The notes beneath the pieces are model-generated. The model made no database searches. It saw only the letters and a list, made by a program, of their open reading frames with translations, and was not told where the DNA came from. Source: Thermodesulfovibrio sp. (GTDB lineage Bacteria; Nitrospirota; Thermodesulfovibrionia; Thermodesulfovibrionales; UBA6898). From it: DNA of 64,000 bases. Made by a program: the position numbers and the translations under genes. Position 1 is the stretch's first letter. Every line of letters starts with the position of its first letter. The stretch covers positions 31,521 through 95,520 of the forward strand of contig PNOC01000006.1 of assembly GCA_013824615.1 (NCBI GenBank), in the 5' to 3' direction. Shown one piece after another: positions 17,408-29,603 of this stretch.

Positions 17408-17779
17408 CTATTCTTTGTGCCTGCTCTTGTAGTCTTCAATCGCCTTTCTCAAGGCATCGGCCCCGAGGTTTGAGCAGTGCATCTTCTGCGGAGGCAGGCC
17501 GCCGAGTTCCGCGGCAACAGCTTCTTTTGACATGGCATACGCCTCGTCGAGCGTCTTGCCTTTGACCATCTCGGTCACCATGCTGCTGACCGCAATCGCC
17601 GCCCCGCAGCCGAAGGTCTTGAACTTGGCATCCGTAATAATGCCATCCTTGACCTTGATATAGATCTTCATGGCGTCGCCGCAGGTCGGATTGCCTTCCT
17701 GGCCAACACCGTCGGCGTCAGGCATATCGCCGACATTTCTCGGATTCGTAAAATGGTCCATCACTTTATCGCTGTACAT
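17408..17779 (-). CDS. iscU: Fe-S cluster assembly scaffold IscU
   Basis: Scaffold on which [2Fe-2S]/[4Fe-4S] clusters are built. It has the three conserved ligand cysteines Cys33 (PTCGD, with Asp35), Cys58 (FGCGAAIA) and Cys102 (KMHCSNLG), and the LGGLPPQKMHCS segment recognised by the HscA chaperone. At 123 residues it is a standalone IscU with no NifU C-terminal domain. No cysteine desulfurase is next to it; the NifS-like gene is about 10 kb away. An 8-bp inverted repeat lies in its leader. Confidence 0.95.
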   Translation of the reverse strand: MYSDKVMDHFTNPRNVGDMPDADGVGQEGNPTCGDAMKIYIKVKDGIITDAKFKTFGCGAAIAVSSMVTEMVKGKTLDEAYAMSKEAVAAELGGLPPQKMHCSNLGADALRKAIEDYKSRHKE

Positions 17780-17789
17780 AACGTCGTAT

Positions 17790-17822
17790 CATGCCGGAGC
17801 TTTAAATATGTCTGCCGGCATG
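17790..17822. promoter_or_regulatory. Inverted repeat in the iscU leader
   Basis: CATGCCGG (17790-17797) pairs with CCGGCATG (17815-17822), with 17 AT-rich bases between. It lies 10-43 bp upstream of the iscU ATG, where no good Shine-Dalgarno is visible. It could be an operator or an mRNA hairpin controlling initiation. Confidence 0.4.
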
Positions 17823-17856
17823 CTCCTTTCCAGAATAAATAATATTAAAACGCTGT

Positions 17857-18786
17857 TTACTGTTTTATATTAGCATTTTTCAGCAGAGACCGGGAATAGC
17901 CACGGTCCTGTGCTATATAGTCAAGGTGCAGCGTTGCAAGATCTTCAACCGGAAGCATCTCCACAGGAGTCGCCTCAAAGGCTGTAATAACTTTGAGATA
18001 ACCATGACACCTGTCGCAGACCTCCACTTTCATTCTTTCATTTTGATCTTCTGTGTAAAGCAGCCCGAGGGTATTGTGGTCTTCATTGCCGCAATACAGA
18101 CACTGCAGCCGCCGAAAGGGCCAGTCAGCCCCGCATGTACCGCACCGCAGATGCTTAGCCTGGTTGTTCCCCTGAAGCTCGGCGAGAGTCGCTGCAGCGC
18201 CGCAGACAGGGCACTGCCCGCTGTCCCAGGGAACTCCCTCAATAAGAGGGGCCGCCTGCCTGCACAACTGCCGGAGGTAAGGTTCCATCGCATCGGACAA
18301 CAGGGACCTGAGCAGGTCAGGGTCAAGGACAAGGTTCTCTGCTGCGCTAACAATACCTTCGGTGGCTCCGGAAGCAATATCCGGCAATAGGCTGCCGACA
18401 TCCAGCCTCTCCCCCTCAAGCGCCACGCGGATAGAACCAGCCTCGGCAGCATGAATCTTATTCAGACCCGTCGTCTCTTCCAGGGCTGACGCAAGACGCA
18501 TCATTAAGCTGCAGACTTCGCGCTCGTCAATTTCAAGAGAAAGATCATGGAGAAGCGGCACTCCCTTCTCCAGTTTGGCACGTGCCTCCTCCGGAGCTAT
18601 GTCCACAGGTCTTGTAGAGATTTCGGCATCACGCAGGACCGGCAGTACTACCTCGTAGTAGCGGGCCGCTTCGCTCAGATCAGGATTGTCCTTAACCACG
18701 CTCTGCAGGCGCTGCAATATCGGATCTTCAGGCGAATCTTCAGTATCGGCGGGATTTTTCAGGTCAGTCCTCCCCGCATGGCTCAT
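17857..18786 (-). CDS. fdhE: Formate dehydrogenase accessory protein FdhE
   Basis: Cytoplasmic maturation factor for respiratory (Tat-exported) formate dehydrogenases; FdhE binds FDH and iron through zinc-ribbon cysteines. Four CXXC motifs are visible in the C-terminal half: CPVCG, CGTCG, CLYCG and CDRCH. The N-terminus is acidic and probably flexible. At 309 residues it is normal for the family. Its ATG overlaps the fdnH stop by 4 bases (ATGA), so it is translated with the enzyme it matures. FdhD, the sulfurtransferase partner, is not in this window. Confidence 0.92.
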   Translation of the reverse strand: MSHAGRTDLKNPADTEDSPEDPILQRLQSVVKDNPDLSEAARYYEVVLPVLRDAEISTRPVDIAPEEARAKLEKGVPLLHDLSLEIDEREVCSLMMRLASALEETTGLNKIHAAEAGSIRVALEGERLDVGSLLPDIASGATEGIVSAAENLVLDPDLLRSLLSDAMEPYLRQLCRQAAPLIEGVPWDSGQCPVCGAAATLAELQGNNQAKHLRCGTCGADWPFRRLQCLYCGNEDHNTLGLLYTEDQNERMKVEVCDRCHGYLKVITAFEATPVEMLPVEDLATLHLDYIAQDRGYSRSLLKNANIKQ

Positions 18787-19619
18787 TCCCCGGCCCCGGG
18801 TTCAGCTCCGGGTTCCTTCCTGCCTCCCCGCTCCCGAAACCTGATCAGTGCCACCATACCCATCAGAAAAGCAGAGAGTTGTGCCCCGCCCTTGTTGATA
18901 AGTGAGAGCTTTCTGCGCTGCTGCACAACCGGGTTCTCAGGCAGACCATAGACAGCAGGATTTTCCATCAGCAGATAAAATACCTTTAGCCCGCCGGCTT
19001 CGCTATACCCGTAAAGATTAGCCTTGTTTTCACCGAGTTTTCTGAGCTGAGCAAGGCGGGAGTCGGCCTTTGTCTTCAGCTCGGAAACCTCGCCGAACTG
19101 TATCGAACCGGTCGGACAGGACTTGGAACAGGCTGTCCCCATGTTGTTATGGATGCGGTCATTACAGAGCGTACATTTATGAGAGGTGCGGGTCTTCTCG
19201 CTGTATCGCACCACCCCGTACGGGCAGGCCTTGTTGCATAATTTGGTGCCGACACATTTGTCCTGCCGCACGATGACATTACCGAGGTCAGTACGTTCTA
19301 TGGCCTCCACCGGGCAGACGTTTAAACAGGCCGCGTCCGTACAGTGCTTACATGAATCGCTCATGAAAAGCCAGCGCGATGCCGTGCGGCGTGAATTGAT
19401 CTGCTCGATGAACAGAACGTGCCGCCAGTCCCTCGCACTCAGCTTTCCGGTGTTGTCATATGAGTTGCCGGTAAAATTGCTGGCCACCGGATAGGGAGCT
19501 CCCGGCCCTTGAGTAAAGTGGTCAGGTTCGGCCTCAAGCCCATTCCACTCCTTGCAGGCCACCTGGCATGCCTTGCAGCCTGTGCATATAGAGGTATCAA
19601 CAAACATTCCCTTTGCCAT
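18783..19619 (-). CDS. fdnH: Formate dehydrogenase iron-sulfur (beta) subunit
   Basis: Electron-transfer subunit passing electrons from FdnG. Four [4Fe-4S] cysteine groups are visible: CTGCKACQVAC near the N-terminus, CKHCTDAACLNVCPVEAI, CVGTKLCNKACPYG, and CTLCNDR with CSKSCP. A short hydrophobic stretch near the C-terminus (QLSAFLMGMVALI) may anchor it to the membrane. I chose the ATG at 19619 (MAKGMFVD), which overlaps the fdnG stop as TGATG and has AAGGAGG upstream; an upstream in-frame start at 19658 is unlikely. The usual cytochrome b subunit (FdnI) is not adjacent. Confidence 0.93.
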   Translation of the reverse strand: MAKGMFVDTSICTGCKACQVACKEWNGLEAEPDHFTQGPGAPYPVASNFTGNSYDNTGKLSARDWRHVLFIEQINSRRTASRWLFMSDSCKHCTDAACLNVCPVEAIERTDLGNVIVRQDKCVGTKLCNKACPYGVVRYSEKTRTSHKCTLCNDRIHNNMGTACSKSCPTGSIQFGEVSELKTKADSRLAQLRKLGENKANLYGYSEAGGLKVFYLLMENPAVYGLPENPVVQQRRKLSLINKGGAQLSAFLMGMVALIRFRERGGRKEPGAEPGAGE

Positions 19620-22600
19620 CAGACCGTACCTCCTTTCCTGCCCGCACGTACATTGCACGTAAAGACCTTCCCTTCATGGATAGAGACGTTGGGATCAGCC
19701 ACAAGCGCACTGAGGTTGTTCACCACGTCGCCCTGTGCCGTGCCCTGCCAGCCCCAGTGCCACGGCATACCAATCTGATGCACGGTTTTCCCGTTAATCA
19801 CGAAAGGCTTCATGCGGCGGGTCACCAGCGCCCGTGCCTGGATCTCCCCCCGCGCCGTCCAGATGGTCATATACTCACCGTTCATGATGCCCTTATCGAC
19901 TGCCAGTTCCGGTGAGATCTCGCAGAACAGTTCAGGCATCAACTCCGCCAGCCACGGCAGCCATCTGCTCATGACCCCGCTCAGGTAATGCTCGGTAAGC
20001 CGGTACGTCGATATGACGATCGGATAATCAGGATCGGCCACCTTATGATACGGGTTGCCCGCAATCTTCCAGACCTTTGCAACAGGGTTGGATTCCTGTT
20101 TATAAAGAACATTGTTAACAGGTGATTCATATGGCTCATAATGGGTCGGCAAAGGACCATCGACCAGACCTGCGGGTGCAAAGAGCCAGGCCTTGCCGTC
20201 AGCGCGCATGATGAAGGGATCGTTGCCCCCCAGCCAGTCAAAGCCGATGCCGGCGTCTTTGCCGGCAGAACCCGGGGCCTTCGTAAGCGCAAAGTCTATA
20301 CCATCTCCGGACGGCGTAAGCCATTTACTGCTAACGGCATCCCAGTAGACAAGCTTCTTTTTTTCCGACCAGGGATTGCCCTTCGTGTCAGCAGAGGCCC
20401 GATTATACATGATATGACGGTTTGCCGGCCACGCGAATCCCCAGTTTGGCGAGATCCAGTTATCGCCCTGACGACGCGCCGACTGGTTCTTGCCCTCCTC
20501 AGGAATAACGCCGGTGTAAATCCAGGCGCCGCAGACGGTAGAGCCGTCTTCCGCAAGGTTCGCAAATGAGGGAACAGGCTTTTTATCTTTCCAGATATAG
20601 CCGTTAATCTCCTTGAGCGCCTTATAGGCAGAGGGCTCGTCCTTGATACGCCAGTTCGCCACTTCCGCCGGCTCAGGCTCATAGTCCCACGTCAGGTTCC
20701 TGATCGCCCAGTCCCGCTCGCGGGTAGAATCCTTGTAGAGCGCCTTGATTTTCTTGCCCAGGTGGTACGTAAACCAGAGATTGCTGCGGGAATCGTCGGG
20801 TGGATCGGCGGCTTTTTCATGATATTGCAGCAGCCGCTGGGTATTGGTAAAAGAACCCTCCATTTCCGGCACACACGCAGAAGGCAGATAAAATATCTCT
20901 GTCTTTATGTCCGCTGTCTTGAGCTCTCCCGACTTGATCTCGGGCGAGTTGCGCCAGAAGGAGGCGGTCTCGGTCTCATAGAAATCCCTCACCACCATCC
21001 AGTCCAGCTTTGCAAGCGCTTTTCGCTGGAACCTGGCGTTCTGACCGCCGACAGCAGGGTTCTGCCCCACGCAGAGAAACCCTTTGATCTTTCCGTCCAT
21101 CATGTCCACAAACATCGGCAAATGGGAATGATCACCGGTAATCTTGGGATGGTAATGATACCCATAATCGTTCTCCCTGGTTGCCGCGTCGCCGAACTGG
21201 GCCTTAAAGTATGAGACGGCAAATTTGGGATAGTTGCCCCAGTAACTCGTCGAAACCGGGACCGCCTCGGTCAGGATAAAATCTTTCAGAGAGTCGTGAT
21301 TCCGGCGGGCATCGGGCATATTCAGGTAACCAGGAAGGGAATGATACAGCGTGGCGATGTCGGTTGATCCCTGAATAGTTGAATGACCACGCAGGGCCAG
21401 GATTCCGCCCCCCGGCCTTCCGATGTTGCCAAGCAGCGCCTGGAGCATGCCTGCGCAGCGGATGATCTGTACCCCGACCGTGTGCTGGGTCCAGCCGACA
21501 GCGTAGGTTATGTTCGATGTCTTGTCTCGTCCCGAATTATTCAGCAGCGTTTCGGCAACGCGGAGAAAGGTTTCCTTCGGGCATCCGCAGACGCGCTCGA
21601 CCATCTCAGGCGTATAGCGGGCATAGTGCTTTTTGACGATCTGGAATACGGTCTGGGGATCCTGAAGCGTCATATCGGTCTTCGGTCTGCCGGGTACACG
21701 CTGCAGCAGGAGATCCGTAAAGGTTTTGGCCTCGCTTACCGTAGACGCAGGCGCCGGGTTGCGCTGATATGACCAACTGGCATTTGAATACGTCTTGCCG
21801 TCGCCGGAAAGTCCTGAGAAGACGCCGTCGAGATCGTCAGGATCCTTGAAGTCGGCATTTACCAGCGTTGCGGCATTCGTATAATTGATCACATATTCCT
21901 TGAAAAACGGGTCTGAATTCCAGCGGCTGCTGTTGATGACGTACGTAATAAGTGCACCGAGAAAGACAATGTCACTGCCTGCCCGGATCTGCGCGTGAAT
22001 GTCGCAGAGGGCCGAGGTCCGCGTAAAACGCGGATCAACATGCATCAGGACCGCACCATGCTCTGTTTTTGCCTTGAGCGGCCAACGGAACGCCACAGGA
22101 TGGCACTCTGCCATGTTAGAACCCATGATCATAACTGCGTCGGAATTGACGAGATCACGGGGAAACGTTGTCGAACCACCCCGTCCAAACGTGACCCCCA
22201 GCCCGGGGACCGTGGAGGAGTGTCATATTCGGGCCTGGTTCTCTACATAGACAACGCCCAGGCCGTGCATAAGCTTCTGCTGTGCATAATTCCATTCGTT
22301 ATCGATCGTCGCACCGCCGAGTGAAGCCAGGGCATAGGTGTTCATCACCCGTTTTTTCGCCTTGCCTCCCTTGCCATCCGGGAGCTCCTCGAACTCATTA
22401 AAGTTTGCATCGCGGGTCTCTTTGACCAGTTTGGCGATACGGTCCATGGCCCAGTCCAGTGGCTTCTCTTCCCAGTGATCACTGCCCGGTGCGCGGTACT
22501 TGACCTTTGTCCAGCGATGCTCGTTCATGACAAGCTGATAGGTTGCCGCACCTTTCGGACAGAGGGTGCCTTCGCTTATTGGCGAATCAGGGTTTCCCTC

Positions 22601-22828
22601 GATGCCGATGATCTTGCCGGCATCGTTGACCATAACAATCTGACCGCAGCCAACAGAGCAGAACGGACAGATGCTCGGCACCTGCTTCCCTGTCTTAATC
22701 GGGACACTGAGCGCACGGCCCTGCACCGCCGCAGTATCCACCCCCAGAGCCGCTGTTTCTGTGGCAACAACGGCACCAATAGCACCTGCTGAAATCTTAA
22801 TAAATTGTCGACGGGTGACGTTCATCAT
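19619..22828 (-). CDS. fdnG: Selenocysteine-containing formate dehydrogenase catalytic (alpha) subunit
   Basis: Molybdenum/tungsten bis-MGD formate dehydrogenase, 1069 residues including Sec202. The N-terminus has a Tat signal (RRQFIK, residues 6-11). The [4Fe-4S] ligands are Cys54, Cys57, Cys61 and Cys90. An in-frame TGA at 22223-22225 falls in QARI-U-HSSTVPGLG, exactly where Sec sits in E. coli FdnG (QARV-U-HGPT). The frame continues without error through GRGGSTTFPRDLVNSDAV and MGSNMAECHP. It is therefore one selenoprotein gene, not two ORFs or a pseudogene. The C-terminal half has the molybdopterin-binding domain (HYLSGVMSRWLPW, HWGWQGTAQG). It is the first gene of fdnG-fdnH-fdhE. selA/B/C are not in this window. 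Confidence 0.95.
22193..22211 (-). promoter_or_regulatory. Candidate bacterial SECIS hairpin of fdnG
   Basis: On the minus strand, 11 bases after the TGA, GGTCCCC (22211-22205) pairs with GGGGGTC (22199-22193) around loop GGGCT. The 18-base distance from TGA to the loop and the G at the loop start fit bacterial SECIS geometry. The pairing includes G-U wobbles. Confidence 0.6.
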
Positions 22829-23033
22829 GGGATCGTATCCTCCTTCTTAACACCAGAATATCAAAATCTCATAGATACTTAAAGCATTATATTATACGGC
22901 GGGCCTGTTCTGTGTAGGCTTATGTAAAAATCGATTGTCAGTTTTTGCTGACAAAGAGTTTCTTTTGATGGACATGAAATCATTTTAGCGGTAAAGTGTA
23001 GATATTGTTACCGCAGACAAGGAGGATAATAAG
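22829..23033. promoter_or_regulatory. Divergent promoter region fdnG / cytochrome P460
   Basis: A 205-bp gap with two dyads: TTGTCAG/CTGACAA (22935-22941 and 22948-22954), and GCGGTAA/TTACCGC (22988-22994 and 23008-23014, 13-base spacer). The second is close upstream of the P460 ribosome binding site and looks like an operator. The regulator is not identifiable. Confidence 0.4.
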
Positions 23034-23582
23034 ATGAAGAGTATCAGGATGTTCGTTTTTGCCGGAGTTGTTGGTATCGGCCTCATGCTTGCCGGGAGTG
23101 ATCTGTTTTCAGCCCAGGACAGGTATGCGCTGAAGGCCCCCAATGGACTCTCCTTCGAAGATATACGGGGCTATGAGACCTGGCAGGTAATCGCACCAAG
23201 TTATCGGACCGATAAAAAAGAAGTCCGGTACATACTCGGGAATACCACGCTTGTGGATGCCTACAAAAAAGGCGCGTCCAATAAAGGTATTGCCTTTCCT
23301 GACGGCGCCGTTCTTGTGAAAATTGCCTATTCCGAGATGAAGAACCCTGTGTTCCCGGCAGCTCTTGAGCCGGATGTTCTTCAGAGGATTGAGTTCATGG
23401 TGAAGGATTCAAAAAAATTCAGCGCTACCGGCGGTTGGGGATATGCACGTTTCGTCTATAACCCGGCCTCAAACACCTATACTCCCTACGGAAAAGATGC
23501 CGCCTTTGCAGACGAGTGCTACCAGTGCCATACACTTGTAAAAGACCGTGACTATGTGTTTACGAAATATCCGGTCCGTTGA
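23034..23582 (+). CDS. Cytochrome P460 family protein
   Basis: Periplasmic heme c protein of 182 residues with an N-terminal signal peptide (about 1-26) and one heme motif, CYQCH (162-166), near the C-terminus, as in the P460/cytochrome c'-beta superfamily. Segments GYETWQVIAP, FPDGAVLVKIAYSE and WGYARF match the family beta-sheet fold. Members oxidise hydroxylamine or bind NO; which applies depends on a lysine-heme crosslink that cannot be judged from sequence alone. GGAGGATAATAAG precedes the ATG. fumC follows after 14 bases. It is divergent from formate dehydrogenase. Confidence 0.85.
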   Translation: MKSIRMFVFAGVVGIGLMLAGSDLFSAQDRYALKAPNGLSFEDIRGYETWQVIAPSYRTDKKEVRYILGNTTLVDAYKKGASNKGIAFPDGAVLVKIAYSEMKNPVFPAALEPDVLQRIEFMVKDSKKFSATGGWGYARFVYNPASNTYTPYGKDAAFADECYQCHTLVKDRDYVFTKYPVR

Positions 23583-23596
23583 TTCTCTGAAATACC

Positions 23597-24982
23597 ATGA
23601 CTGACTTCCGTATTGAGCATGATGCCCTCGGTGAGGTGAGCATACCCGCAGATGCGCTTTATGGGGCCCAGACCCAGCGCGCGATCGATAACTTTCCTCT
23701 CAGCGGGACAGCCTTTCCGCGGGTTTTTATCCGTTCTCTCGGCCTGATAAAAAAAGCCGCAGCCATGGCAAATGAGGATCTGGGTATGCTCGATGCCGCG
23801 AAAGCAGCGGCAATCACGGCCGCTGCAGACGAGGTGATAGCAGGCAGATGGGACACTCAGTTTCCTGTCGACATATTCCAGTCAGGGTCGGGCACCTCAA
23901 CAAATATGAATGCAAACGAAGTCATCGCAAACAGGGCCATCCAACTGTCGGGAGGGGCCCCTGGGGCCAAGACGATCCATCCCAATGACCATGTCAACCG
24001 GGGCCAATCGACGAATGACGTTATCCCGACTGCTATCCATGTCAGCGCCTTTATACTGGCAAGCGAGTCCCTTCTGCCGGCATTACGCCATCTCCATGGC
24101 GCGTTGATCAAGCGCATGCAGGAACTCGATGACGTTGTTAAGACCGGCCGCACGCACCTGATGGATGCAGTGCCGATCAGGATGAGCCAGGAGATTAGCG
24201 GATGGGCCCATCAGATCAGGCAGGCTATCGAGCGGATCGAATCCTGTCTGCCGAGACTGGCCATGCTGGCCATCGGGGGAACAGCAGTCGGAACCGGCAT
24301 CAATGCCCATCCGGAGTTCGGGAAACGGGTGGCTGCCTTGCTAGCCGCTGAAACGGGATTACCCTTTGAGGAAACAGGTAACCACTTTACCTCTCAGGCA
24401 GCCGTTGATACGGCGGCTGAACTGAGCGGCCACGTGAAGACAGCGGCCCTGTCCCTCATAAAGATATGCAATGACCTGCGCCTTATGAACAGCGGCCCGG
24501 TTGCCGGTCTGTCAGAGATATCGCTTCCTGCAGTCCAGCTCGGTTCGAGCATCATGCCCGGAAAGACCAACCCGGTCATCTGCGAGGCAGTGACCATGGT
24601 CTGCGTGCAGGTGATCGGCAATGATACCGCGATCACGATCGGAAGCCAGTGCGGCAATTTTGAGGTGAACATCATGCTGCCGCTCATAGCGCACACTCTG
24701 CTTCAGTCTGTCTCGATTCTCGCTCATGCCGCACGCCTGCTTGCAGACAAGGCTGTTGCGGGGTTTACCGTAAACCGGGAACATATTGCAGAGCTCGTCG
24801 GTCGGAATCCCATCCTCGTCACTGCGCTGTCGCCAATAATCGGATATGACAAGGCCGCGATGATTGCCCGTAAGGCCTTTGCTGAAAAGCGCAGTATAAA
24901 AGATGTTGCAGCTGAAATGACGGAGTTGACCTCAGAAGAACTCGACCGCCTGCTGGACCCGCGTTCGATGACCGGGAAATAA
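23597..24982 (+). CDS. fumC: Class II fumarate hydratase
   Basis: Oxygen-stable, Fe-S-independent fumarase of the TCA cycle, interconverting fumarate and malate. The superfamily signature GSSIMPGKTNPV is present, as are TSTNMNANEVIANRA, DHVNRGQSTNDV and GRTHLMDAVP. At 461 residues it is full length. It starts 14 bases after the P460 gene with no strong ribosome binding site, so it may depend on upstream translation. Confidence 0.97.
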   Translation: MTDFRIEHDALGEVSIPADALYGAQTQRAIDNFPLSGTAFPRVFIRSLGLIKKAAAMANEDLGMLDAAKAAAITAAADEVIAGRWDTQFPVDIFQSGSGTSTNMNANEVIANRAIQLSGGAPGAKTIHPNDHVNRGQSTNDVIPTAIHVSAFILASESLLPALRHLHGALIKRMQELDDVVKTGRTHLMDAVPIRMSQEISGWAHQIRQAIERIESCLPRLAMLAIGGTAVGTGINAHPEFGKRVAALLAAETGLPFEETGNHFTSQAAVDTAAELSGHVKTAALSLIKICNDLRLMNSGPVAGLSEISLPAVQLGSSIMPGKTNPVICEAVTMVCVQVIGNDTAITIGSQCGNFEVNIMLPLIAHTLLQSVSILAHAARLLADKAVAGFTVNREHIAELVGRNPILVTALSPIIGYDKAAMIARKAFAEKRSIKDVAAEMTELTSEELDRLLDPRSMTGK

Positions 24983-25075
24983 CCGCAGGCATCGAGCCGG
25001 CACATACATCACGCTTGCACTGAACACTCCCCTACCGGCCGGTTGAGGTCATCATTTTGCATGCAGACTTTGGCA

Positions 25076-25104
25076 TTGACAACCCGCCTTCCCGGAATCA
25101 TTAT
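25076..25104 (+). promoter_or_regulatory. Putative sigma-70 promoter of the DUF1566 gene
   Basis: TTGACA (25076-25081), 17-base spacer, CATTAT (25099-25104), about 57 bp upstream of the ATG at 25162. The -35 is perfect and the -10 fair. Confidence 0.5.
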
Positions 25105-25161
25105 ATGACATGGAACAAAGCCGTGCTTCGCGGCTGCAATGGATTACGCGGGGAGGCAGTT

Positions 25162-25827
25162 ATGTCTGGGAAGAAATTGGTGCTGATCGTATTTTCATTG
25201 ATGTTGGTACTTGCAAGTGCAGCATATGCCGCACCTGGGGTTGAGGTGAGCGGTAATCTGCATTTATCAGGAACGGGGACAATCAGTTTCCCGGATGGCA
25301 AATCGCAAACGACGGCAGCAACCGACTGCACAGGGAGATATGAATTTAACAGTAATGTTAACTATCCGAATGGCGATGGAACAGTGACGGATTGCAGGAC
25401 AGGGGTAATATGGTTGAAAAACGCAAACTGCACAGATACCAGCAACGGCATTGCAAAAGCAGAAAACAATGGTACACTTGCCTGGGCGGATGCCAACGCG
25501 TGGGTCGCAGGTCTGGGCAATGGTATATGCGGGCTGCATGACGGTTCTTCAGCCGGAGACTGGAGACTGCCGACGAAAACGGAATGGATGGCTATGGTTC
25601 AGAGTGCGCGAAAGCATGGCTACGCAAACCCTGCTCTAACAGATGCGGCAGGGAACGGACAGTGGACAGAGGGAGATATTTTTGACAGCGTCAAGGGCAT
25701 CTACTGGTCCGGCAGCAGCTTCGATGCCGACGGCGCCTGGTGTGTCGCCCTGAGCATTGATGGCGGCATTGCCGTCGACATTAAGAGCAACAGCGACTAT
25801 GTATGGCCGGTACGTATCGGGAAGTAG
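25162..25827 (+). CDS. Secreted DUF1566 (Lcl C-terminal-like) protein
   Basis: Exported 221-residue protein with a signal peptide at about 1-23 (MSGKKLVLIVFSLML...AYA). The N-terminal part VSGNLHLSGTGTISFPDGKSQT resembles phage-tail or adhesin linkers. The DUF1566 domain follows with the characteristic TDCRTGVIWLKNANC, DWRLPTKTEW, YWSGSSF and VWPVR pattern of a C-type-lectin-like fold. The start is fixed by GGGGAGG 5 bases upstream of the ATG at 25162. It stands alone between fumC and a convergent gene. A surface or binding role is inferred; the ligand is unknown. Confidence 0.82.
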   Translation: MSGKKLVLIVFSLMLVLASAAYAAPGVEVSGNLHLSGTGTISFPDGKSQTTAATDCTGRYEFNSNVNYPNGDGTVTDCRTGVIWLKNANCTDTSNGIAKAENNGTLAWADANAWVAGLGNGICGLHDGSSAGDWRLPTKTEWMAMVQSARKHGYANPALTDAAGNGQWTEGDIFDSVKGIYWSGSSFDADGAWCVALSIDGGIAVDIKSNSDYVWPVRIGK

Positions 25828-25866
25828 ATTGTTTAATATAGGCCACCCGATCAACAGAACAGCCTC

Positions 25867-27570
25867 TCACTCCAATCCGCTTACCTGTCTGTCCGGAGGG
25901 TATTCTACGGAAAAGACGAACGGGATCTTGATCATCTCGCCCGGCTTGACCTTGAAATACCACTCAAAAAAGTTCAGTTCGTTCTTTTTCAGCACCGGTG
26001 AGTCCTTCTCGTATTGAGGCTCCACCAGCTTAACCACGATGTCCTGGTGGGATGCAATCGGCAGCTGGTCCCAGACAACCAGTTCCTCTTCGGTTTTCTT
26101 GTTGTTCGTAATCTCCGTCAGATACTCGTAAACCATTTTGGTCTTCTTTTCGAATAGCCCTTCCTGCTTCTGGTGTTTCTTCAGAAACTTCCGCTCGACC
26201 TTGATCGCCCCATCAACCCCGAGGAACGTCCAGAACTCCTCACCAGGGGCAACCTGTTTCATGGAGGCATTCGCAACGAAGCTGCTGTCCAGAAATACAT
26301 TGGTATTGCCCGGCAGGAGGGGAAATTCACTCGCATTCTTCACCTTCGTTTTCAGATATGCATTGGGTGAAAGTTTTGGAACCGTGGAATAACGGAAATC
26401 AGCCGGGAAATCCTGAATAAGAACCGTAACCTTGTGCGGCAGATTGTCGCTGGCTATGGTATTTCTGCCTCTGATCTGAAAAACAACGGAAGTAGCATTC
26501 GTCTGAACATTGGCAGCCGGTTTATCCATTACACTGGCCGCCTTTTGTTCCTCCAGGCTATCCATCTCTGCAGCTGCGGCAGGCATCATCTGCCTTGCCA
26601 TCTGCGGTGCAGGAGCTGCCGGATAGGCAACTGCCTTCTTGTCTAAACGGGGGCGCGGCTCGATAAAACTGACACGCCAGGGATAAAGCTCAGGCTGCTG
26701 ACCGCCGATCCGGGGCTGGGCAGTCGAGAGCTCCACCGCCACATCGTCCCAGGCTTCAGAGGTGTTCTGCCGTATGACCGCATTATAGGTCAGGTTCATC
26801 TTTTTTTCGCGGGTCGAGACACGAAGGTCATATAACGGCTGCCAACTTGGACCGCGCACTATGTAAGAGAGCGAGAGGGAGAGTTCCCCTGCCTCCTTCA
26901 TCCTCACCAGCACCTCCACATGGTACCTGGTCTTCTGTTCAGCGCTGCCAAGGTCCGCAATCTGCCTGGTGACCTTGCTCAGCCTGGCCTTCTGGTCACG
27001 TTTGGCAATCTCCGTTTCACGAATTTCCTTGTCAAGCGCCGCATTCCTGACGCGGTAGAGATCCACCATTTTGACCCATTTTTCAGGGTCCAGTTCTCCT
27101 GCAGGGGTCTTGTCCGTGACGCCTGTCAGCTTCCTGGTTATATTCTCAAGAAATCCCTTCTCATTATTTGCCAGGCTGATCTTTCCATCCAGCTCTGCAA
27201 TCCGGTCTTCAATATTTGTCTTTTCGTCCAGAAGGGCCTTTCTGTCCTTGTCCGGGGTTTCAGTATAGCGTTCTATGTCCGTCTTCACATCACTCAGTTC
27301 AGCGCTGCCTGTGCCGTTCACCTGAATGCTGCCAGGCTCCAGCCCGGCCGGCAGATTATCGAATACAAGCCGCTGCTCGCCTGCAGGAAGTTTCTCTGAG
27401 GCAGTTCGCGTCACCTGCGCACGGTCTGAATATACAGTTACGGCCGAGATGCGCGATTTAAGTATCTTGACTGCAGGGTCATTGGCTTTGGCAAAGGCAG
27501 TACTTGATCCGGCAAGAAAAATCCCCAATGCACAGACGGTCAACAGGACAACACGGATTACAGGTTTCAT
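25867..27570 (-). CDS. DUF4139 (mucoidy inhibitor MuiA-like) domain protein
   Basis: Exported 567-residue protein with a signal peptide at about 1-27. The N-terminal DUF4140 segment (ISAVTVYSDRAQVTR) is followed by a long coiled coil at about 105-215 and a DUF4139 beta-rich domain (LSYIVRGPSWQPLYDLRV, WDDVAVELSTAQP, EYLTEITNNKKTEEELVVWDQLP). An Ala/Pro/Met-rich linker occupies about 315-350. AGGAGAGG precedes the start. Function in bacteria is unclear; the family is often found among envelope proteins. It is 50 bp downstream of the NifS-like gene and on the same strand, so it could be expressed from that operon by read-through or separately. Confidence 0.85.
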   Translation of the reverse strand: MKPVIRVVLLTVCALGIFLAGSSTAFAKANDPAVKILKSRISAVTVYSDRAQVTRTASEKLPAGEQRLVFDNLPAGLEPGSIQVNGTGSAELSDVKTDIERYTETPDKDRKALLDEKTNIEDRIAELDGKISLANNEKGFLENITRKLTGVTDKTPAGELDPEKWVKMVDLYRVRNAALDKEIRETEIAKRDQKARLSKVTRQIADLGSAEQKTRYHVEVLVRMKEAGELSLSLSYIVRGPSWQPLYDLRVSTREKKMNLTYNAVIRQNTSEAWDDVAVELSTAQPRIGGQQPELYPWRVSFIEPRPRLDKKAVAYPAAPAPQMARQMMPAAAAEMDSLEEQKAASVMDKPAANVQTNATSVVFQIRGRNTIASDNLPHKVTVLIQDFPADFRYSTVPKLSPNAYLKTKVKNASEFPLLPGNTNVFLDSSFVANASMKQVAPGEEFWTFLGVDGAIKVERKFLKKHQKQEGLFEKKTKMVYEYLTEITNNKKTEEELVVWDQLPIASHQDIVVKLVEPQYEKDSPVLKKNELNFFEWYFKVKPGEMIKIPFVFSVEYPPDRQVSGLE

Positions 27571-27619
27571 GGCCTCTCCTCTTACCTTGAAGTTAAACGC
27601 GACAGCCTTCTATACATGC

Positions 27620-28816
27620 TCAGCCGGTTACGCAGGTACCGCCCTCCTGCGAGTCTCCCCAGCCCTGCGCAAAGGGGGATATCTCCCTGAGCCTCCTAAT
27701 CACGGCAGGGAATTCAGTCACCAGGTGGTCCACATCTTCAATCGCATTCCCCATACCCAGGGTAAAAACAATAGAGCCCTGCGCCAGTCCGGTCGGTACG
27801 CCCATCGCCAGAAGCACGGGAGAGGACTTCAAAGCCTTTGATGAACAGGCTGATCCGCTCGCGGATAAAATACCCTTGGCTGCCATCAGCATCAGCATCG
27901 CCTCGCCCTCGATAAATTCAACACAGAAACTGGCATGCCCCGGCAGACGGTTCTGACGGTCGCCAGTCAAAATAGCATTTGGAATCCCTGCCACACTGTC
28001 GATGATCCTGTCCCTCAGCGGCCTGAGATATTCCATCCTCTTGCCCAGCTCAGCCTTTGCAAGCTCTGCAGCCTTGCCCATGCCGACGATCGCAGGGACA
28101 TTCTCTGTTCCTGCCCGCCTGCCTGACTCCTGTATGCCGCCGTATATAAGCGGAACGATCCGCAGACCCTGCTTCACATAAAGGGCCCCCGCACCTTTGG
28201 GGCCATAGAACTGATGTGCAGCCATCGTCAGCAGGTCAACTCCCAGGTCCTGCACATCAACCGGAATATTGCCGGTGGAAGCAACAGCATCGGTATGCAC
28301 GATAATATTATGTTCTTTCGCGATCCGGGCAATCTCCTTGATCGGTTCAATCGTCCCGACCTCGCTGCTGGCATGGGTCACTGATATCAGAGTTGTCTCC
28401 TTGATGATCGCCTTCCTGACGGTCTCAGGATCAACAACCCCCTGTTTGTCAACCGGAAGATACGTGACCGTAAACCCGCTTTTTTCGAGGAAACGGGCAG
28501 CGTTCAATATGGAATGGTGCTCCATGCGGGAGACGATAATATGCTTGCCCTCATTCTGCCGGGCAAGGGCAATACCCCTCAGGGCAAAGTTGTTCGCCTC
28601 GGCGCCGCTGGCCGTAAAAGTGATTTCAGAGGGCTTTGCATTGACAAGGCCGGCAACCTTTTCCCGAGCCTCTTCAATGGCGTTCTTGGCCGTCATACCA
28701 TAGGCATGAACACTCAGAGGGTTGCCGAACTCCTCTTTGAAATACGGCATCATCGCCTCAAGCACTACCGGGTCGAGCGGGTTCGTGGCCACGTGATCAA
28801 AATAATATTTCTTCAT
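27620..28816 (-). CDS. NifS/IscS-like cysteine desulfurase homologue lacking the PLP lysine
   Basis: Fold-type I aminotransferase-V family protein, 398 residues, aligned with IscS/NifS throughout: YFDHVATNPL, FGNPLSVH, MEHHSI, HTDAV, YGPKGAGALYV, GGIQESGRRAGTENV, and SGSACSS with the persulfide Cys324. The Schiff-base lysine of IscS lies in SGHKIYGPKG. Here the same place reads AAHQFYGPKG, so Gln202 (codon CAG) replaces it, and the PLP-ring Gln of DATQS is Ala179 in DAVAS. It may be inactive as a desulfurase, act on persulfide transfer, or use another residue. I chose ATG 28816 (GAGG 5 bases upstream), 2 bases after the TusA-like stop. It is the third gene of an operon headed by an IscR-like regulator. 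Confidence 0.85.
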   Translation of the reverse strand: MKKYYFDHVATNPLDPVVLEAMMPYFKEEFGNPLSVHAYGMTAKNAIEEAREKVAGLVNAKPSEITFTASGAEANNFALRGIALARQNEGKHIIVSRMEHHSILNAARFLEKSGFTVTYLPVDKQGVVDPETVRKAIIKETTLISVTHASSEVGTIEPIKEIARIAKEHNIIVHTDAVASTGNIPVDVQDLGVDLLTMAAHQFYGPKGAGALYVKQGLRIVPLIYGGIQESGRRAGTENVPAIVGMGKAAELAKAELGKRMEYLRPLRDRIIDSVAGIPNAILTGDRQNRLPGHASFCVEFIEGEAMLMLMAAKGILSASGSACSSKALKSSPVLLAMGVPTGLAQGSIVFTLGMGNAIEDVDHLVTEFPAVIRRLREISPFAQGWGDSQEGGTCVTG

Positions 28817-28818
28817 AC

Positions 28819-29070
28819 TCACCTCGCATGCTTCTTGATATAGAATTTAAAAAAATCCGGGGTCTCATCTATCCCGAGGAACTCGTTACCTGTCTTGTCG
28901 CACCAGGCCGGGATATCCTCAAGCGCCCCGTCGTAGTCGGTCATGATCTCAAGTATCTGCCCGGGCTCAAGCTCCTTCATCTGCTCCTCAAGCTTCAGAA
29001 GATGCATCGGGCACATCATATAGACGATATCGGTCGTGACATCCGGCTTGACATTCTCGACAAACTTCAT
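28819..29070 (-). CDS. TusA-like sulfur carrier protein
   Basis: An 83-residue TusA/SirA-fold protein. TusA proteins carry sulfur as a persulfide on the Cys of a CPxP motif; here the motif is Cys20-Pro-Met-His. The segment LEPGQILEIMTDYDGALEDIPAWCDKTG is characteristic of the fold, and Cys57 lies in the position of the second helix. It overlaps the regulator gene upstream by 4 bases (ATGA), and the NifS-like gene follows within 2 bases. A sulfur relay between TusA-like and NifS-like proteins is inferred from this tight coupling. Confidence 0.85.
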   Translation of the reverse strand: MKFVENVKPDVTTDIVYMMCPMHLLKLEEQMKELEPGQILEIMTDYDGALEDIPAWCDKTGNEFLGIDETPDFFKFYIKKHAR

Positions 29071-29564
29071 GATGCCAGCCGCGCCTTTGTCTTATCCGGA
29101 ACCTTGGCCATAATATTGCCAGGAACCTGGCCAGGCCTCTGCTTCAGAGAAATAAACTCATTGCCTTCGAGCAGGTCCTTCAGCGTCATGCTGTTCAGAA
29201 AGGCCTCGATATTTTCACCAAGTGATTTCCAGAGCAGATGCGTAACACACCCTTCAACCCGCATGCAGCCCTCTTTCGGGTCAAGACAGGAGGTTATCGC
29301 CACCGGCCCCTCGAGCTCCCGCAGGATCTCACCGATGCTCACCTTGCCCGGGTCCCGGCTCAGGACATACCCGCCGCCCGGCCCCCTGACGCTCTTGATG
29401 ATGCCTGACTTGCGGAGCTGGTTGAGGATCTGCTCCAGATAGGCGACCGAAACATCCTGCCGCTCTGATATCTCCCTGATCGTGACAGGACCGTGATTGC
29501 AGCTCCGGGCAATTTCAAACATCGCCCGCACACCATACTGCCCCTTTGTCGATAATCTCAGCAT
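29067..29564 (-). CDS. IscR-like Rrf2-family Fe-S transcriptional regulator
   Basis: A 165-residue winged-helix Rrf2 protein. MLRLSTKGQYGVRAMFEIA and SVAYLEQILNQLRKSGIIKSVRGPGGGYVLSR form the DNA-binding domain. Cys93, Cys100 and Cys106 correspond to the [2Fe-2S] ligands of E. coli IscR (92, 98, 104), though the first spacing is one residue longer. It heads the operon with the TusA-like and NifS-like genes. A 25-bp site closely matching the IscR type-1 consensus overlaps its promoter, suggesting autorepression according to Fe-S status. There is no Shine-Dalgarno upstream, and the predicted -10 is only 7 bases from the ATG, so the mRNA may be leaderless. Confidence 0.88.
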   Translation of the reverse strand: MLRLSTKGQYGVRAMFEIARSCNHGPVTIREISERQDVSVAYLEQILNQLRKSGIIKSVRGPGGGYVLSRDPGKVSIGEILRELEGPVAITSCLDPKEGCMRVEGCVTHLLWKSLGENIEAFLNSMTLKDLLEGNEFISLKQRPGQVPGNIMAKVPDKTKARLAS

Positions 29565-29570
29565 ATATAA

Positions 29571-29603
29571 ATTTAATAATAGTCTAGTGATTCTGTCAAG
29601 TAT
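29571..29603 (-). promoter_or_regulatory. IscR type-1-like operator over the rrf2 promoter
   Basis: The minus-strand 25-mer from 29603 to 29579 begins ATACTTGAC and ends GACTAT. It matches 22 of 25 positions of the IscR type-1 consensus ATASYYGAC-TRWWWYAGTC-RRSTAT (mismatches at positions 10, 17 and 19). It contains the -35 TTGACA (29599-29594). TTAAAT (29576-29571) lies 17 bases further on as a -10. Confidence 0.65.

Follow-up and report, generated by a model that had tools for sequence, protein, structure and literature searches.

A conserved IscS homologue without the PLP lysine, predicted to be a partner of IscU in Nitrospirota

A gene of Thermodesulfovibrio sp. that we call iscS* encodes a cysteine desulfurase homologue that likely aids Fe-S cluster building without splitting cysteine, because the PLP lysine and the substrate arginine are both absent and the sulfur-carrying cysteine is retained. 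On balance, we favour the reading that the protein is a desulfurase-dead partner of IscU, relaying sulfur, predicted to come from a TusA-like carrier, via Cys326 onto the scaffold. The gene lies in the window, the whole stretch of 64,000 nucleotides that we analysed, which holds the following features.

27620..28822, minus strand: iscS*, a NifS/IscS-type gene without the PLP lysine, 400 residues from GTG 28822
28816, minus strand: alternative ATG start of iscS*, giving 398 residues and fitting most homologues in alignment A1
28211..28213, minus strand: Gln204, codon CAG, at the place of E. coli IscS Lys206 (sequence and homologues)
28280..28282, minus strand: Ala181, at the place of E. coli IscS Gln183 (sequence and homologues)
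27767..27769, minus strand: Val352, at the place of E. coli IscS Arg354 (sequence and homologues)
27845..27847, minus strand: Cys326, the retained persulfide cysteine, at the place of E. coli IscS Cys328 (sequence and homologues)
28819..29070, minus strand: tusA-like gene, 83 residues, CPMH motif, Cys20 and Cys57; PF01206 at 74.3 bits, above the cut-off
29067..29564, minus strand: iscR-like gene for an Rrf2 regulator, 165 residues, Cys93, Cys100 and Cys106; PF02082 at 140.2 bits, above the cut-off
29576..29603, minus strand: conserved promoter/operator-like element ATACTTGACA..ACT..CTATTAT, directly 5' of iscR
17408..17779, minus strand: iscU, 123 residues, Cys33, Cys58, His101 and Cys102; 10 kb from iscS*

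Residues of iscS* are numbered from the GTG; the ATG lies six bases further on, and numbers counted from it, as in the first-pass annotation, increase here by two (Gln202 becomes Gln204).

The active site of iscS* is extensively altered. By its Pfam Aminotran_5 match (261.8 bits, above the cut-off) the protein has the fold and sequence of a class V aminotransferase; it does not reach the NCBIfam equivalog cut-offs for NifS (TIGR03402, 485.6 bits versus 530.75) or IscS (TIGR02006, 374.3 bits versus 643.2). Where E. coli IscS reads SGHKIYGPKG, iscS* reads AAHQFYGPKG. Further changes relative to the E. coli enzyme are Thr76 to Ala74, Asn154/155 to Ser152/153, Gln183 to Ala181, Ser203 to Ala and Arg354 to Val352, the last at the residue that we take to bind the substrate carboxylate. 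The places of Asp180, His104, His205 and Cys328 are unchanged. Of the hallmarks of a type I cysteine desulfurase, iscS* has the persulfide cysteine and lacks both the Schiff-base lysine and the substrate-binding arginine. In the predicted model, residues 327–330, next to Cys326, have pLDDT values below 50. A cysteine-bearing C-terminal tail follows an LRxxSP motif in 95 of 108 close iscS* proteins. The first-pass annotation had correctly read the glutamine (CAG) at the PLP-lysine place, the alanine at the PLP-ring glutamine and the kept persulfide cysteine. Its overall reading stands for the loss of the lysine together with other active-site residues, for the gene order and for the promoter-like element; it had missed the loss of the substrate arginine, iscU and the archaeal precedent. 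Persulfide transfer, one of the roles that it had offered, is a predicted role here as well.

The glutamine is shared by close homologues. Among the 120 matches listed of 8000 scored (79–94% identity), Gln204, Val352 and Cys326 are each present in 120/120 and Ala181 in 116/120. The glutamine codon varies silently (CAG 117, CAA 23 among Q-bearing loci); most of these loci were picked by an HQ pattern, with some genomes represented twice, and only the silent split is informative. A pattern scan that demands HQ says nothing of how frequent glutamine is, and our estimate of frequency rests on the homologue listing and on surveys of genomes. One such survey, made without demanding glutamine, covered 41 genomes; 38, with the window's own among them, have an iscS* copy of at least 62% identity, which shows Gln in 36, Ile in one and Glu in one. 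Across Nitrospirota, 74 of 245 genomes have a match of at least 62% identity, and the lysine site holds Q in 66, E in 5 and M, I and L in one each, with K in none. HQFYGPKG occurs in 63 of these 74; the other 11, all read, have Gln (3), Glu (5), Met (1), Ile (1) or Leu (1). Family f4 has Glu or Ile at the site, one f7 genome has Met and one f15 genome has Leu.

These data exclude a sequencing error or local mutation, the case that the first-pass annotation would have accepted had most homologues carried lysine: glutamine is found in 120/120 matches listed, lysine in none of the 74 closest Nitrospirota copies, and the site is otherwise substituted in f4, f7 and f15. It also argued against decay, and we agree. 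Key catalytic residues are absent, as in a decaying gene copy, yet the frame is intact, identity over the homologues listed is 79–94%, similar substitutions occur in other phyla, and both operon and promoter element are conserved. We regard the probability of decay as negligible.

More distant Nitrospirota homologues that we read (about 45–58% identity) split into two sets. One comprises 11 canonical homologues with lysine and substrate arginine (L200, L205–L209, L211, L213–L216). The other lacks the arginine and has Arg, Thr, Pro, Asn, Ser, Met or Gln at the lysine site, with Lys in five. Taken across all the Arg-less relatives, the site holds Q, E, D, L, M, I, R, N, T, P, S, Y or F, and K in 5 rows of our trait table. 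Because these relatives carry so many different residues there, glutamine is not a special residue. A role for it as a new catalytic residue is excluded by the same variation, which the first-pass annotation had not seen. Two groups of relatives differ elsewhere. Three IscS-like proteins, from relatives at class level, have a STCTMMS cysteine loop; the lysine site is Lys in L192 and Asn in L198 and L199. Four loci with titles such as Syntrophaceae or Deltaproteobacteria (L049, L088, L099, L118) have a longer cysteine loop, SACASN..A.DETGLKASHVL, with HSDGAG or HSDGTG replacing HTDAVA; iscU adjoins, and no tusA or iscR was detected nearby.

The arginine was apparently lost before the lysine. 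Our trait table is an author-chosen set of 91 rows, of which 60 lack both lysine and arginine, 5 lack the arginine alone, 26 have both and none lacks the lysine alone. A cysteine stands at the Cys326 place in 91/91. On a tree built with the trait columns masked and left unrooted (the root was not inferred), the arginine changes once in the quick and twice in the careful version, the lysine four times (quick) or three times (careful), and the residue at the lysine site 18 times (quick) or 16 times (careful). A single clade of all Arg-less rows, archaeal Asp forms included, is not rejected (p-AU 0.41). By contrast, a single Lys-less clade is rejected (p-AU 8e-5), which excludes loss of the lysine as one event. 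The rows with both residues fall together on one side in 26% of 200 bootstrap trees, from a bootstrap that had not settled. The simplest reading of these sequences is that substrate binding was apparently lost first, with the arginine, and that the unneeded lysine then drifted in several lines. Five Arg-less IscS homologues that still have lysine (L189, L190, L191, L192, L194) are possible intermediates of loss.

Could iscS* still be a PLP enzyme, holding the cofactor without a Schiff base or through another lysine, and processing cysteine or another substrate? Asp178 and His102, at places that presumably hold PLP in canonical enzymes, are kept (91/91 and 25/25 rows, respectively), so that non-covalent PLP binding is possible, and lysine itself persists in the 5 Arg-less rows. 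Nevertheless, the arginine is absent from all 65 rows of the Arg-less group, the places of Thr76, Asn155, Gln183 and Ser203 are altered in the window's iscS*, and the lysine site, where no fewer than 12 different residues occur, does not look like a catalytic site in use. We consider a surviving PLP enzyme quite improbable.

The adjoining genes are predicted to specify an Fe-S regulator and a sulfur carrier. As had been noted at first pass, a regulator, a sulfur carrier and a desulfurase homologue are encoded by three overlapping genes; the coordinates, the minus strand, the 4-nt overlaps between iscR-like, tusA-like and iscS-like genes and the Pfam matches all bear this out. The conserved order that it had proposed to look for across genomes is present in 30/30 loci of the window's genome and its relatives, found without demanding glutamine. 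A DNA pattern scan of GTDB genomes that did demand HQ gave at least 119 loci, 110 with an HQ-type iscS* and 9 without. Among the matches listed, 91 of these 110 are titled Nitrospirota; the others are Thermodesulfobacteriota, Schekmanbacteria, Aminicenantes, Chloroflexota, other groups or unnamed.

Neighbours were counted only in listed loci with enough flank. Among these, iscU lies at most 1 kb downstream of iscS* in 90/94, tusA at most 1 kb upstream in 72/94 and iscR at most 1.6 kb upstream in 73/85. Of the 22 loci without an upstream tusA, 12 have a more distant tusA-like gene (about 36–49% identity) downstream, mostly behind iscU; no tusA was detected in the other 10 of the 94 loci listed, and about four of these 10 are truncated by the end of the locus. 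Judged from these sequences, the usual operon is iscR-tusA-iscS*-iscU. In the window, about 10 kb (17408–27620) with genes for formate dehydrogenase, FumC (fumarase), DUF4139 and other proteins lies between iscS* and iscU. Since iscU is directly behind iscS* in the same-genus genomes G003 and G004, and about 0.6 kb behind in G002, this separation looks like a recent rearrangement. The formate dehydrogenase alpha gene (19619–22828, minus strand) is split into two frames by one in-frame TGA at residue 202 (VENQARIUHSS) and would read through as a selenocysteine enzyme.

The partner proteins keep their sulfur and cluster residues. For each, conservation was counted over the window and the loci, some genomes twice, leaving out rows below 55% identity (50% for IscU) or too short. 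The tusA-like product has the TusA domain and the active cysteine, with Cys20, His23 and Cys57 in 105/105 rows of at least 55% identity. CPxP is the usual TusA motif; here it is replaced by CPMH (His in 105/105 rows); among the tusA-like neighbours of iscS* that are more distant, some (L063, L149) read CPMP. The best NCBIfam match is YedF (41 bits versus a cut-off of 79), for which reason we considered that the gene may have a part in selenium metabolism. The iscR-like product is an Rrf2-domain protein with the three cluster cysteines (99/99 rows), and His109, at the place of the fourth ligand, is present in 62/99; it does not reach the NCBIfam IscR equivalog cut-off (TIGR02010, 149.6 bits versus 207.55). 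The Cys and His ligands of IscU are present in 123/123 rows.

The operon also has a dedicated promoter-like element, as the first-pass annotation had supposed in writing of a specific promoter. Of 80 distinct upstream regions, 73 have ATACTTGAC 38–42 nt 5' of the iscR start codon; 23 loci with low identity, a truncated N-terminus or too little flank had been removed beforehand. With up to 3 mismatches allowed, the longer element is found just once in the whole genome. It is near-palindromic and overlaps the −35/−10 region, with the start codon right after. Because the −10-like part ends so near the start codon, the transcript is probably leaderless, and the near-palindrome over −35/−10 suggests that it is probably under the control of the IscR-like protein.

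The Rrf2/IscR-type gene of the operon, together with the conserved operator-like site, would also suit a purely regulatory iscS*, a protein that stays out of sulfur flow and adjusts the system by holding on to IscR or IscU. Yet Cys326 is invariant, and iscU adjoins iscS* even where no iscR was detected (L049, L088, L099). We give this regulatory role very little credence.

In the genomes of the order that we searched, iscS* and a strong SUF match seldom occur together. The window's genome (100% complete by tool estimate) has a dsrA match above the cut-off, and its host is probably a sulfate reducer; searching this genome gave no SUF core protein. We looked for SUF in 91 genomes of the order, 76 of which were also in the iscS* survey (15 were dropped). 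A strong SufB/D match (E <1e-36) was present in 2 of 56 genomes with iscS*, which thus have both systems, versus 16 of 20 without (Fisher value 6e-11, with kinship ignored and the group without iscS* drawn mainly from two families, f10 and f11). Among the 56, 43 had no SUF match and 11 had only a weak one (E 1e-17 to 1e-22), which we did not rate as strong. We searched 30 of these 43 for PF01592 and found exactly one gene in 20 and two in 10. By coordinates, the single PF01592 gene is the iscU beside iscS* in 20/20.

Several points count against a relay through iscS*. The window's genome is among the 10 with two PF01592 genes, having a NifU (contig C28) besides iscU, and its iscU stands outside the operon. 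Canonical desulfurases are present as well. The window's genome has two canonical iscS paralogues, at least one further paralogue match occurs in 38/38 survey genomes with iscS* (the window's included), and the paralogues read in 19 of the 20 single-iscU genomes (all but G134) have lysine and arginine in 19/19. Four paralogue matches (G026, G038, G139, G233) have a stop reported within the matched range, yet an open frame of 392–432 residues. Given these paralogues elsewhere in iscS* genomes, IscU could receive its sulfur straight from an ordinary desulfurase, with iscS* perhaps in an accessory role.

A lysine-less IscS that partners IscU is already known in archaea, and the kind as such is not new, since the Archaeoglobus fulgidus protein and an Aquificota homologue in the PDB both belong to it. 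The A. fulgidus IscS is reported to have Asp in place of the Lys (PMC7585200) and to be without desulfurase activity, its cysteine ligating the [2Fe-2S] cluster on IscU (PMC7585200, PMC5176006; structures 4eb5/4eb7); Methanosarcina acetivorans IscS1 is given as another lysine-less IscS (PMC7585200). A. fulgidus IscS2 (PDB 4eb5, 4eb7, 4hvk; D199K mutant 4r5f) shares 46–47% identity with iscS* over 368–378 residues. Like iscS*, it lacks the PLP lysine and the substrate arginine (Leu stands there), and it has Ala at the Gln183 place and a persulfide cysteine followed by SSK; it is a partner of IscU, as predicted for iscS*. It differs in having Asn-Asp rather than His-Gln at the His-Lys site, and Thr and Ser still at the Thr76 and Ser203 places; it is also archaeal. 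Among its homologues listed, 119/120 have Asp at the lysine site, and the remaining one (P0122) is the engineered D199K. The Gln183 place holds Ala, Pro or Ser and the arginine place Leu or Val, and the cysteine is found in 120/120. Those that are named are archaeal. Like this type, iscS* has lost both lysine and substrate arginine, keeps the cysteine and is encoded with iscU, within 1 kb in 90/94 loci listed and at 10 kb in the window.

The A. fulgidus precedent offers a different role for iscS*, in which the protein never carries sulfur: its dimer would hold IscU, Cys326 would be only the fourth ligand or shield of a nascent cluster built from free sulfide, and TusA would serve another pathway. 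The inactive, cluster-ligating A. fulgidus protein (PMC7585200, PMC5176006), the same losses of Lys, Arg and Gln among its homologues listed and the dsrA of the window's genome are consistent with such a role. It leaves unexplained the 4-nt overlap of tusA with iscS* and the tusA-like gene up- or downstream in 84/94 loci listed. We judge it rather unlikely, though it has a real claim to attention.

Other systems share single traits with iscS*. The PDB has an Aquificota protein named 'cysteine desulfurase' (9wep, 9wer, 9wew, 9wf8, 9wfb, 9wfe, 9wfy). Of 118 homologues of it examined, almost all the named ones from Aquificota, 95 have Leu at the lysine site (HLMYGPKG 94, HLIYGPKG 1), where iscS* has Gln; Tyr occurs in two and Phe in one, and 20 fell outside the search expression, two of which read HYFYAPKG. 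Val stands at the arginine place in 118/118, as in iscS*. Since the canonical residues are seen in 9wep and the Lys-less/Arg-less ones in 9wfy, these entries look like a series in which the active site was changed step by step. The MIS system resembles iscS*-iscU as a minimal pair of IscS and IscU homologues, MisS-MisU; MisS, unlike iscS*, is described as a cysteine desulfurase, and the available description of the system includes neither TusA nor IscR (PMC12442378, PMC10653786). In E. coli, the places where IscS binds its partners TusA and IscU lie around Cys328 (PMC2854127). The enzyme of these complexes (3lvj, 3lvk, 3lvl), unlike iscS*, is a canonical desulfurase with Lys206, Gln183 and Arg354, and passes sulfur from IscS to TusA. 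Assembly from sulfide has been described too, in anaerobic E. coli without iscS, where H2S feeds assembly on IscU (PMC13015791), and in the desulfurase-free Methanococcus maripaludis, which makes clusters from sulfide (PMC10500019). In the literature, searched by title and the start of the abstract and mostly outside subscription papers, we found no prior description of a bacterial lysine-less IscS with TusA, of an operon that joins it to genes for a CPMH TusA and an IscR-like protein, of a likely housekeeping role or a standing beside the sole IscU/NifU-type gene in SUF-less genomes, or of the Arg-first order of loss.

How might a relay through iscS* work? Sulfide, in a genome that has dsrA, or else a canonical desulfurase encoded at an unlinked site would be the first sulfur donor. 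The TusA-like carrier would deliver sulfur towards IscS*, opposite to the E. coli direction, and Cys326 would carry it as a persulfide or ligate the nascent cluster. Judging by the homologous complexes of A. fulgidus and E. coli, the IscS* dimer may still dock IscU. The IscR-like protein would sense cluster supply and control the operon. The TusA-like protein could equally be a sulfur acceptor, and its CPMH departs from CPxP. Extended to the group, the relay becomes a more tentative proposal, which we put forward as a possibility: in many Thermodesulfovibrionia-like Nitrospirota, housekeeping Fe-S assembly may run on a desulfurase-dead ISC system, with sulfide-derived persulfide passing via the CPMH TusA and the IscS* relay to IscU, the E. 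coli direction being reversed and cysteine not the source; the arginine would have been lost first and the lysine later, repeatedly, in bacteria and archaea alike.

Cysteine is usually taken to be the standard sulfur source for bacterial Fe-S clusters. In 20 of the 30 SUF-less genomes searched, though, the sole IscU/NifU-type scaffold gene stands beside a desulfurase homologue without the residues of textbook chemistry. Judging by this finding, an entire family may carry a wrong source name, 'cysteine desulfurase' for instance, and the order of loss, arginine first and lysine later, suggests how such an enzyme was switched off. Two questions become testable: do anaerobes in sulfide-rich places make clusters from sulfide or carrier-bound sulfane sulfur, and is the IscS fold retained for its cysteine loop rather than for catalysis?
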